A DNA stretch of 64,000 nt from Fidelibacterota bacterium (GTDB lineage Bacteria > Fidelibacterota > Marinisomatia > SCGC-AAA003-L08 > TS1B11). A program made the translations under genes and the position numbers. Below, piece after piece: positions 60,194 to 63,585 of the stretch. Each line of letters opens with the position of its first letter. The first letter of the stretch is position 1. Under the pieces are notes generated by a model, which saw only the letters and a program-made list of their open reading frames with translations, was not told the DNA's origin and did not search any database. The stretch lies in contig CP070638.1 in assembly GCA_020354025.1 (NCBI GenBank), positions 814,006-878,005 on the forward strand. Reading direction: 5' to 3'.

Positions 60194-60268
60194 GGACGCT
60201 TAGCTCAGTTGGTTCAGAGCGCTGCCCTTACAAGGCAGAGGTCGCAGGTTCGAGTCCTGCAGCGTCCA
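60194..60268 (+). tRNA. tRNA-Val (UAC anticodon)
   Basis: Acceptor GGACGCT/AGCGTCC, D-arm with TTGGTTC loop, anticodon stem CTGCC/GGCAG with loop CTTACAA (anticodon TAC), T-arm GCAGG/CCTGC with TTCGAGT, discriminator A followed by CC. Lies 15 nt after lon and precedes the accessory 3' region. Confidence 0.95.
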
Positions 60269-60281
60269 CCGACGAGAAAAA

Positions 60282-60487: not shown

Positions 60488-60955
60488 CTACTCACGCACC
60501 TGATATCTCGGCTTACCGTCGGAATTAAATAGTATTTCCTTCACATTCATTATTGGAAGGATGAACCTGCTAAAAGGTGTACCGCTGGTTTTTTCTATTA
60601 AAACTCCTCGGGTTGTGGAGTAGTGGATTGAAAAGAGTGTAACAAGCAGATCATCTGGCAATTGATATGTCTTCCCTTCCTTCTGTAGATTTTCCCAGCC
60701 CCTAACATTATACGCGGATTCGGTATCCAACTCCACGCATTTCTGCACTTCATCCCCCTCGCCGATCTGGATTACCGTTGAGAGTCTACAAATGAGAATT
60801 TGCTTCTCATCATCAAGAGAGAACTCTAATTCTAAGTGGAATCCAACAGGGATTTGTTCGTCTTTGGGGAGACTAATCTGGGTTAGGGTAAACCCCCTAA
60901 CGTTAAAGGAAGAATATTTAAATTCAATCGCGACACTCTCCCCAACGCTCATCAT
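60488..60955 (-). CDS. SecB-like protein, candidate TAC chaperone
   Basis: About 155 aa, cytosolic. A beta-rich first half (FHLELEFSLDDEKQILICRL) leads to ELDTESAYNVRGWENL and YQLPDDLLVTLFSIHYSTTRG, then the ending TPFSRFILPIMNVKEILF. The order beta-sheet, helix, then a (S/T)xRGxL turn and an LPxxN strand follows SecB, where the C terminus reads VSRGTFPQLNLAPVNFDAL. Solitary SecB-like genes third in an operon after a toxin and a XRE antitoxin are the chaperones of TAC modules such as HigB1-HigA1-Rv1957. ATG 60955 overlaps the antitoxin stop as ATGA and has GGGGG upstream; GTG 60967 is the alternative. Assignment is by pattern, not a search. Confidence 0.55.
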   Translation of the reverse strand: MMSVGESVAIEFKYSSFNVRGFTLTQISLPKDEQIPVGFHLELEFSLDDEKQILICRLSTVIQIGEGDEVQKCVELDTESAYNVRGWENLQKEGKTYQLPDDLLVTLFSIHYSTTRGVLIEKTSGTPFSRFILPIMNVKEILFNSDGKPRYQVRE

Positions 60956-61497
60956 GCAATCCCCCACTGAGACGAGGTGTCTTGATCTTTTCCTAAAGCG
61001 TCTCCACTAGTTCTCACTACACCCACGTCTTCAATCTCTTGGTCAGACAAAGGAGGAAATATTCTTCGCGCCTGATAGAACTCACTAGGATCATCTTCAA
61101 TATTGAAGGCCTCTTCGCTTCTAATGACATGAGCGAATTGCCAGATAACTTCCTCAGTAGGGGATGGTAGTGTAGCCTCCTCTATGTCTCTCCATCCTTC
61201 GACATAGACTGACCATTTTTCATCCTGGGAAGTCTCACTCGTAATTTCCAATAGGGGCTCATCGAGAGCTTGCTCAATCCTACTTATTGTCTTCAAAGTT
61301 GGATTGTGAGATGGTGAAATTAAACGGCTCATGAATGAAGCCCGTAAGCCAGCACGTTTTGCCACCTCATCTTGAGTCAATCCCTTCTTCTTTATTATCT
61401 GGGATATTCTAGCAGCTAGGTGGAATTTTGTTCTCAAGAAACGCTTTCGCTCCACGGGGATTTCGTTTACGATTGCTTCTAATTTCTCTATACCCAT
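60952..61497 (-). CDS. XRE-family regulator, candidate antitoxin with chaperone-addiction tail
   Basis: 181 aa. Residues about 26-85 form a helix-turn-helix of the XRE type (AARISQIIKKKGLTQDEVAK, RASFMSRLISPSHNPTLKTI). The last 95 residues are a separate acidic tail (EDDPSEFYQARRIFPPLSDQ) that typical HigA antitoxins (about 100 aa) lack. In TAC systems just such a C-terminal extension makes the antitoxin unstable unless the SecB-like chaperone binds it. The ATG comes 1 nt after the stop of the upstream gene and its TGA overlaps the next gene's ATG, so the three are strictly coupled. Autoregulation through the twin repeats at 61992-62026 is likely. Confidence 0.7.
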   Translation of the reverse strand: MGIEKLEAIVNEIPVERKRFLRTKFHLAARISQIIKKKGLTQDEVAKRAGLRASFMSRLISPSHNPTLKTISRIEQALDEPLLEITSETSQDEKWSVYVEGWRDIEEATLPSPTEEVIWQFAHVIRSEEAFNIEDDPSEFYQARRIFPPLSDQEIEDVGVVRTSGDALGKDQDTSSQWGIA

Positions 61498-61498
61498 A

Positions 61499-61996
61499 TT
61501 AACACCTAAACCTCAGGTTACCGTCGTATTGTAGTGAACCATAAGTATTCGTGACTATTCTTATATCGCCACTTGAGATTCTTCGCTGAATTTCCGTGTG
61601 AGTGTGTACTAGAAGTTCAACCGCTGAATTGCATACGGGCACCTTCTGATAATTACGCACATGCCAGGGTTTTACTCCGCCTCCTCCTACTATACTCAAT
61701 TTCGGATCATCACATAAAAAGAATAGCCTCAGATTGCTTGCAACCTCAGTTTTAATCTTACAGACCGGGATATCTTTCCCATCGACCTCATAGTCGAGAT
61801 ACTCATCAATAAATCCTATCTCCTTGATCATTTCAAGGACCAAGGCTTCAACAGGATAGAATCCCTTATTGTTCCTAATCTCTGGAGTGTCGAGGAATAT
61901 TTCATATTCACAGAGTTCAGAGTCCGAGAATTTGACTGAATGAAGGGTGGCACCATGATATGAGCCGAAGATGACCAGGTTGTAGTCACGATTCAC
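61499..61996 (-). CDS. first gene of TAC-like operon, candidate toxin of unknown family
   Basis: 165 aa, no family recognised. The position directly upstream of an antitoxin-like XRE gene with 1-nt spacing is the toxin slot of HigBA-type operons. The C-terminal half, ASNLRLFFLCDDPKLSIVGG followed after about 18 residues by VELLVHTHTEIQRRI, loosely follows the RelE/HigB pattern (LRLFFF, then a short strand, then a helix). The N-terminal 75 residues (FGSYHGATLHSVKF, FYPVEALVLEMIKEIGF) have no such match. The start is GTG 61996, which lies inside an operator-like repeat; no ribosome site is visible, and the mRNA may be nearly leaderless. Confidence 0.55.
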   Translation of the reverse strand: MNRDYNLVIFGSYHGATLHSVKFSDSELCEYEIFLDTPEIRNNKGFYPVEALVLEMIKEIGFIDEYLDYEVDGKDIPVCKIKTEVASNLRLFFLCDDPKLSIVGGGGVKPWHVRNYQKVPVCNSAVELLVHTHTEIQRRISSGDIRIVTNTYGSLQYDGNLRFRC

Positions 61997-62378: not shown

Positions 62379-62945
62379 TTATTGACCTTTATAATCAAAC
62401 GTGACGTCGGGTAGATAATCCCCGTTTGTATCAACGCCAACTTTATCCCAGTAGGAGTCTCCATTTGTATCCAAAAGCCAATACTCAAATGTCCCGTTGC
62501 CATCGTTATCATAGAGGACACCATCGACTATACCATCATAGTTATTATCAACTACAAAATAGTCCATCAGCCCGTCTTGATTATCATCGGTGACGACCAT
62601 ATCATAATAACCATCATTATTCTGATCCACTGCGTATTTCTCGTAGACCCCATTCGCATCATCGTCGATATAATCGACACCCGGAAGGTGTTCCTGATTA
62701 GACGGCACCCTCCGCTTTTTTGCCATCTCTAGCTGTTCCCTTTGGAGTAGGAGCTTCTCACGTTCAATCGCCAGTCGTTCCCTTTGAATATCTAGAGATT
62801 CTGCCGCCCTCATTTCTTTATTCATTTCCACAAGCATCTCATTTAGACCATCTAAAATATTATGCAATGTTACTTGACCAAAAGCAGAGATAGGTATGAT
62901 ACTGACCGCTATTATGATCGGGATTAAAGAACAACGTTTTTTCAT
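62379..62945 (-). CDS. secreted coiled-coil protein with Asp-rich (DxNxDG) repeats
   Basis: 188 aa. Signal peptide (LIPIIIAVSIIPISAFGQ), then a charged coiled coil (RLAIEREKLLLQREQLEMAK), then about eight short acidic repeats such as VDQNNDGYYDMVVTDDNQDG, DNNYDGIVDG, DNDGNGTFEY and DTNGDSYWD. These match calcium-binding dockerin-like or thrombospondin type 3-like repeats (DxNxDGxxD). The name of the family is not known to me. It may have once extended into a sorting domain, given the relic directly downstream. AAAGGGGG lies 5 nt before the ATG, and a strong promoter-like site with an RNA-like leader is 105 nt upstream. Confidence 0.65.
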   Translation of the reverse strand: MKKRCSLIPIIIAVSIIPISAFGQVTLHNILDGLNEMLVEMNKEMRAAESLDIQRERLAIEREKLLLQREQLEMAKKRRVPSNQEHLPGVDYIDDDANGVYEKYAVDQNNDGYYDMVVTDDNQDGLMDYFVVDNNYDGIVDGVLYDNDGNGTFEYWLLDTNGDSYWDKVGVDTNGDYLPDVTFDYKGQ

Positions 62946-62960
62946 GATTCCCCCTTTGCA

Positions 62961-63050
62961 TCAAGAAACTTCCGTAACTCACTAATTTACCATTTATGCT
63001 TACAAAAGTATCATATCATTATTATCCTCCCTTAATCCGGGACCTTGGGC
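62961..63050 (-). other. unit C: degenerate RNA-like leader of the DG-repeat gene
   Basis: Begins with GCCCAAGGTCCCGG at the predicted start, then TTACGGAA and TTTCTTGA appear near 62978-62961, matching the 3' region of unit A. The complementary closing arm is missing, so the terminal stem cannot form. Transcription would run on into the gene at 62945. Confidence 0.45.
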
Positions 63051-63056
63051 TATGGG

Positions 63057-63085
63057 AGCATAGGATAAAGTCGGTGAGATGTCAA
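63057..63085 (-). promoter_or_regulatory. promoter of unit C
   Basis: TTGACA, 17 nt, TATGCT on the minus strand; 6 nt then lead to GCCCAAGG. Confidence 0.6.
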
Positions 63086-63170
63086 GGAAAAGCCCAAGGC
63101 CCCTGAAGGATTGTGTGTCAGTTATTACACTGAGGAATGCACCCTCGAGTCTCCTCCCGGAACCCTGGGC
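63086..63170 (-). ncRNA. unit B: candidate small structured RNA, about 80 nt
   Basis: Predicted transcript starts GCCCAGGGTTCC (63170-63159). It ends with GGGGCCTTGGGC (63103-63092), which pairs with the 5' arm over 12 positions allowing three G-U pairs, and is followed by TTTTCC. Inside, TCAGT/ACTGA (loop GTAATA) and GAGG/CCTC form small hairpins. No open frame or ribosome site is present. Unit C begins immediately downstream, giving a 120-nt repeat period. Confidence 0.55.
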
Positions 63171-63176
63171 AGCGAA

Positions 63177-63205
63177 AGAGTACAACAGTGGCGGAAGAAA
63201 GTCAA
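63177..63205 (-). promoter_or_regulatory. promoter of unit B
   Basis: TTGACT, 17 nt, TACTCT on the minus strand, then 6 nt to GCCCAGGG. Confidence 0.6.
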
Positions 63206-63255
63206 GAATAATATTCATCCACGCCCTGATCTCTTTTGTATATTCCTATATATAC

Positions 63256-63284
63256 TTGACAAATCAGCAACTTGAGTGTAATAT
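63256..63284 (+). promoter_or_regulatory. strong sigma-70-type promoter of unit A
   Basis: TTGACA, 17 nt, TAATAT, then 6 nt (ATCTCA) to the G of GCCCAGG at 63291. Exact -35 box and ideal spacing. No protein gene follows on this strand. Confidence 0.75.
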
Positions 63285-63290
63285 ATCTCA

Positions 63291-63372
63291 GCCCAGGACT
63301 CCTCCTACTCCCCTGCAAGAGTAGGCCTATACCAATCTCTGCTACTTACGGAATCCTGGGCCCTCTTTTCTT
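63291..63372 (+). ncRNA. unit A: candidate small structured RNA, about 70-80 nt
   Basis: The 5' arm GCCCAGGACTCC (63291-63302) pairs with GGAATCCTGGGC (63350-63361), 11 of 12 positions. Inside, CCTACTC (63304-63310) pairs perfectly with GAGTAGG (63319-63325) around CCCTGCAA. A U-rich tail CCCTCTTTTCTT follows the closing stem, as in an intrinsic terminator. Promoter and start position fit exactly. I do not recognise it as 6S, SRP, tmRNA or a known riboswitch. Confidence 0.6.
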
Positions 63373-63585
63373 GAACTCCCCTAGCACTACTCGCCAGAAT
63401 CCCGTTTTTAGTCTCCTGGCGCTAGCCTAGTACGTCAAAGAATTAAAACAAACCCTTGGGAGATAAACAAAGGATAAGTGAATTCGCGCCTTACCATTTA
63501 AAACCCAACTCACATTAAATCCCATCCGATCCAGCTCAACTATTACTCCTAATTGGATTTTGGCTATGTGCTGATGTGAGCCGCC

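Follow-up and report, generated by a model that had tools for sequence, protein, structure and literature searches.

A candidate multicopy family of clamped small RNAs in uncultured bacteria and on a tRNA-Val integrative element

The window, the 64-kb stretch of Fidelibacterota DNA analyzed here, contains compact promoter-hairpin units that are probably small-RNA genes in their own right, belonging to a multicopy family not described before. The original prediction, made from three neighboring units named A, B and C, had proposed an undescribed family of RNAs of about 70-80 nt, and this proposal is now supported at the sequence level by homologues, covariation, a strand bias of G-U pairs, a shared promoter and U-rich tail, and the absence of an Rfam match. 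The layout of the unit, its dispersal, the covarying clamp and the strand-specific tolerance of G-U pairs can all be read from the aligned copies.

Layout of the units in the window

The cassette spans ~118-120 bp and consists of a sigma70-type promoter (TTGACA, a spacer of 16-17 nt, TAnnnT), a start 5-6 nt further 3', and a predicted ~70-80-nt RNA whose first and last dozen bases form a constant clamp, GCCCAGGnYYCC / GGRRnCCTGGGC. The apex inside the clamp is variable, often consists of two hairpins, and is not conserved across the family. By reading of the sequences, the TTGAC-type -35 and the TAnnnT -10 are aligned in nearly all of the 18 full-length units described below. A U-rich tail follows the clamp in nearly all copies, but often at a distance of 2-4 nt from the stem, and L2 and G3 are without a good U-tract; no terminator in the window stretch passed a strict scan.

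Direct reading of the window (Table 1) bore out the coordinates, the 17-nt promoter spacing and the placement of GCCCARG predicted for all three units, and likewise the 12-bp closing stems, with a single mismatch in A (one C.A) and three G-U pairs in B. Of the three copies, A and B are complete, but C comprises only a promoter and a 5' arm. Without a 3' arm, C is a partial unit that now resembles the promoter or leader of a gene for a 188-aa protein. The tandem arrangement of B and C with a 120-nt period is correct as a spacing but not as a 120-bp repeat, because the likeness among A, B and C is limited to about -36 to +14, beyond which it is at background.

Table 1. Units, predicted parts and flanking features (window positions; L005 positions where given)
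Feature	Position	Strand	Remarks
Unit A, complete	63251..63371	+	model R2 match, 66.2 bits; L005 7257-7377; promoter, clamped hairpin RNA, U-tail
Unit A promoter	63256..63284	+	-35 TTGACA 63256-63261, 17-nt spacer, -10 TAATAT 63279-63284
Unit A 5' arm GCCCAGGACTCC	63291..63302	+	predicted RNA start 63291
Unit A 3' arm GGAATCCTGGGC	63350..63361	+	11/12 pairs
Unit A U-rich tail CCTCTTTTCT	63362..63371	+	
Unit B, complete	63082..63210	-	model R2 match, 68.4 bits; L005 7088-7216
Unit B promoter	63177..63205	-	-35 TTGACT 63205-63200, 17-nt spacer, -10 TACTCT 63182-63177
Unit B 5' arm GCCCAGGGTTCC	63159..63170	-	predicted RNA start 63170
Unit B 3' arm GGGGCCTTGGGC	63092..63103	-	12/12 pairs, three G-U
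Unit B U-rich tail TTTTCC	63086..63091	-	
Unit C promoter	63057..63085	-	-35 TTGACA, -10 TATGCT
Unit C 5' arm GCCCAAGGTCCC	63039..63050	-	no 3' arm; no match by model R2
188-aa secreted-type protein gene	62379..62945	-	105 nt 3' of C predicted start
Left 47-bp att repeat	60224..60270	+	L005 4230-4276
Right att partner	~72444-72490, beyond window		L005 16450-16496

How specific is this arrangement to the locus? Across the 3.4 Mb of the host genome, the motif TTGAC-N18-TANNNT-N5..8-GCCCARG is present at exactly three places, which lie together inside 250 bp (A on the plus strand, B and C on the minus strand), and a reversed control of the TTGAC/TANNNT/GCCCARG pattern has none in the same 3.4 Mb; when up to three mismatches were allowed there were six further matches and nine for the control, which is background level. 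A scan of both strands of the 64 kb for a 12-nt clamp with a 66-83-nt span and a T-rich tail found three places (523 on the plus strand, A and B), and among these a promoter lies immediately 5' only at A and B. Both units fold better than 200 of 200 dinucleotide shuffles (A, z -4.2 to -4.8; B, z -4.5). Promoters of consensus type occur widely and by themselves are no proof, and in a scan for them promoter-like sites overall were about as frequent as in shuffles, as would be expected if the units were chance combinations of promoter-like and hairpin matches. Against this stand the uniqueness of the motif in the genome, homologues with the same layout, and covariation, and we regard the likelihood of chance as negligible.

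A coding interpretation was also considered and set aside: B and C fall within a single open frame, and a start codon and similar residues are common to B, L1 and L2, but only a slight third-position excess emerged when codon differences were counted by hand, and A has in-frame stops. An invertible promoter was rejected as well, the 39 bp between the inverted repeats that flank the C promoter being judged too short.

Homologues and selection on the fold

The first homologue search used the promoter and both arms as a pattern across 257 Gb of genomes and found two places. One, L019 in the Gammaproteobacteria, has no further likeness and was discarded as a chance match; the other lies in the MAG MohnsGC08_bin191 (G171; L020/L022) and matches unit B at 84% identity across 73 bp that take in the spacer. 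The same MAG has a second paralogue 84% identical to the first over 173 bp. Covariance models were built on four units (R1) and on nine (R2), with the variable apex given as N because whole-unit alignment with MAFFT misplaced the B 3' arm. Model R1 recovered units in close relatives, and G005 has three units in tandem at Lon/tRNA-Val, the same site as in the window. Model R2 recovered 18 full-length units, nine of them outside its building set: nine spread across six contigs of G005, two each in G000 and G171, and one each in G002, G003, G004, G007 and G009. At E<=0.001 over 245 genomes of the phylum, six matched, all in the window's own family, and none of the 234 genomes outside the family did, which serve as an empirical null. 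No family in Rfam 15 matches above its gathering score (only mir-665 at E 1.4, chance level), a blastn comparison of the region with 40 relatives, phages and plasmids gave no match, and pattern scans of viral contigs gave none.

MohnsGC08_bin191 is a distant host, not among the matches in the window's class or phylum, and within its own group, covered by 397 genomes of the class and 89 of the family, it is the sole genome with real units; the other model matches in the 397 genomes of its class are promoter-like stretches without the clamp and were rejected. Its units may reflect transfer or a mis-binned 29-kb contig. Its neighborhood has two other stretches in common with that of the window. 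One, of 64 bp (87.5% identity, L005 7999-8062 and L020 2899-2962), lies 3' of different genes in each host; the other, of 44 bp (window 63494-63537, minus strand; L020 3882-3925, plus strand), differs mostly at third positions, reads ELDRMG[F/Y]NVSWVLNG, resembles the end of a phage-type HTH, and is probably a gene remnant in both hosts. A small gene, SLEDLVY..., is common to G171 (L022 2016-2197, where an in-frame TAG interrupts it) and the G005 Lon/tRNA-Val region (L069, on the opposite strand directly after U2). A third hairpin adjoins the second unit in L020 (1917-1995), and a similar tandem occurs at L071 10012-10080 (+), where a second clamped hairpin with the tail TTTTATTTT adjoins the G002 unit. 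Two other dispersed repeats occur in the relatives, CGTTTCCAAGGATTAGCTGACGCCTCAT and GCCCCAGGATGC..CCTGAGCGCGTTTC (flanks of L092, L096 and L077; L094, L097, L069 and L096).

Pairing in the 12-bp clamp reaches 94.4% over the 18 units, against 68% or less in slid controls; the covariation score of the clamp exceeds 500 of 500 shuffles and the slid controls, and both-sided changes occupy 11 cells against 3.4 expected (1 of 500 shuffles). The nine seed units alone give modest covariation (15/500), and the compensatory stem changes that had been claimed from A and B amount to one true pair between those two units, so that the strong covariation comes solely from the homologues found here. Among clamp mismatches in the 18 units, G.U outnumbers A.C by 42 to 8 (p 1e-6), and by 23 to 5 in the units outside the model, although these counts and the covariation are inflated by an alignment fitted to the clamp and by the shared ancestry of the copies, and are thus strong support rather than proof. 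If only a DNA palindrome counted, G.U and A.C would be equal, because each becomes the other on the opposite strand; the excess of G.U points to selection on an RNA of the promoter-bearing strand. In a G005/G004 subset, compensatory changes extend to an additional inner stem and to a hairpin at the apex, which has two both-sided changes. The homologues and covariation on which the original prediction had staked itself were thus looked for, and both are present.

The same observations bear on whether GCCCARG could be an operator, a DNA-level site at the starts of co-regulated promoters arranged as inverted repeats. Five alternating GCCCARG heptamers inside 320 bp of the window would suit such sites, but the strand-specific tolerance of G-U pairs and the conservation in other genomes of the 66-80-nt clamp spacing together with the U-tail would not, and we consider operators very improbable.

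Dispersal, neighbors and the integrative element

The window units lie in a 12.2-kb integrative element, the ends of which are 47-bp direct repeats of the 3' part of tRNA-Val(TAC). It encodes a tyrosine integrase, an excisionase-type HTH, an Arc-like repressor and a DnaB/D5-type primase-helicase, plus cargo, a gene layout that is phage-satellite-like. The tRNA-Val site is a hotspot, and the element carries two family copies, with B and C oriented toward Lon/tRNA-Val and A away from it. Further partial att/tRNA-Val 3' copies past the right att (L005 16630-16658 and 16700-16726) hint at an older or nested insertion. At 60488-61996 (minus strand) a three-gene module with a central XRE HTH matches the B and C components of the PADLOC candidate defense system PDC-M64. 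For the 188-aa protein, no homologues were found beyond a weak repeat match within its own genome, and the gene therefore provides no anchor for synteny. Fourteen of the 15 bases of ATACCAATCTCTGCT in the A apex (63329-63343, plus strand) are the same, in the same sense, as signal-peptide codons of the 188-aa mRNA (62883-62897, minus strand).

The local duplication originally proposed is one aspect only, as the family is scattered over the genomes of relatives, G005 alone having nine copies, and those in the window belong to an integrative element. The likeness of the G005 paralogues extends over ~118 bp, beginning just 5' of the -35 and ending just 3' of the U-tail; beyond this they are unrelated, and they sit among differing neighbors. 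Likeness over this length, promoter included, indicates that whole cassettes were copied at the DNA level. Such sharp edges, with many copies per genome among differing neighbors and copies on an integrative element, would also fit a non-autonomous MITE-like mobile repeat lacking RNA function, in which the inverted repeat and promoter would either assist mobility or have no role, and any transcript would be a by-product, and MITE-derived sRNAs are known in Coxiella (PMC5896051). However, there is no target-site duplication signal (p 0.79), and there are no terminal inverted repeats: the ends, CCCCTTGAC... and ...CTTTGCCCGG, are not mutually inverted, and the inverted repeat starts ~40 bp inside the left element end. 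An ordinary MITE is therefore unsupported, and a plain MITE was rejected for want of a target-site duplication. In addition, the strand-specific G-U excess and the compensatory changes are unexpected for a DNA-level repeat. We judge the MITE-like explanation unlikely; a mobile repeat other than an ordinary MITE is possible. As regards the transposon-end match that had been named as evidence against an sRNA family, neither target-site duplication nor terminal inverted repeat was found, but the sharp-edged ~118-bp copies leave room for a MITE-like mobile origin. No obvious transposase was noticed among the neighbors of the units.

Could the units instead be 5'-leader attenuators, each a promoter and a leader hairpin or terminator followed by the gene it regulates? 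The C start lies 105 nt 5' of an ATG, L3 in L020 continues into an RBS with an ATG, a sense gene lies 60-500 nt 3' of several units, and the B 3' arm is able to pair with the C 5' arm instead of its own. Yet at least six units (L092, L094, L095, L096, L077 and L078), a syntenic pair included, are followed by a gene of opposite orientation, and in G007 and G009, which belong to different genera, the unit is kept beside the same convergent gene and so is not the leader of that gene. Genes 5' of the units sometimes end less than ~30 nt away, and those 3' face either way, which argues against a general leader role; we find attenuators improbable.

Relation to known systems and proposed mechanism

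Integron attC sites have RYYYAAC / GTTRRRY end boxes. The units resemble attC sites as imperfect hairpins with paired ends and a variable middle, situated between small genes, but their ends, read directly, are not these boxes (the arms are GCCCAGG / CCTGGGC) and a sigma70-type promoter abuts the hairpin, so attC was rejected. Y RNA/Yrl RNAs are likewise short and have paired ends, and in two genera a unit lies close to a gene for the RNA ligase RtcB, on differing sides and possibly by chance (L070 4924, minus strand; L076 1501, plus strand), but the units have no Rfam match and many copies per genome. REPs are intergenic palindromes of 20-40 bp (PMC3733652), unlike ~118-bp units with a promoter. 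Dispersed hairpin-forming repeats able to yield sRNAs include QMITE1/QMITE2 of Coxiella and the Correia elements of Neisseria (PMC5896051). The units share with such transcribed MITEs the multiple sharp-edged copies, but they lack target-site duplications and terminal inverted repeats, carry a promoter and U-tail inside the unit in nearly all copies, and number one to nine where transcribed MITEs number about 50. The units thus fail at least one tested feature of each of the MITE, REP and attC classes. In their working they may be most like multicopy sRNA families of the LhrC type (PMC5880928). As the cited accounts describe them, LhrC1-5 of Listeria and the sibling sRNAs of Neisseria are several related short RNA genes per genome with their own promoters (PMC5880928; PMC5362039), an arrangement that the units share. 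What sets them apart is layout: the RNA is clamped end to end through its first and last 12 nt, and the copies are scattered as cassettes of ~118 bp with sharp edges. No relation in sequence was noticed.

As stand-alone small-RNA genes, the units would work as follows. The sigma70-type promoter would start transcription at GCCC, pairing between the two terminal dozens of bases would close the RNA with a clamp, and the U-rich stretch would end transcription, so that an RNA is presumably made in which clamp and U-tail act as terminator and protect the ends. The constant clamp may provide a common scaffold, and the variable apex may give each copy its own specificity for a target RNA or protein. 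Promoter, RNA and terminator would be copied jointly as a DNA cassette, two of which ride the integrative element, and the family has possibly spread as a small mobile cassette. A more tentative idea, which we hold with low confidence, is that the ~118-bp unit could be viewed as a minimal self-contained mobile RNA gene, the fold of its RNA under selection, that lacks the hallmarks of a MITE and spreads inside a bacterial family as well as on integrative elements.

For the family described here, absent from Rfam 15 and found in uncultured bacteria, a covariance model is available and 18 members have been placed, which makes its expression and function directly testable. If it is true that the copies move as complete promoter-RNA-terminator cassettes, they would be a compact example of how sRNA genes are multiplied and carried on integrative elements.
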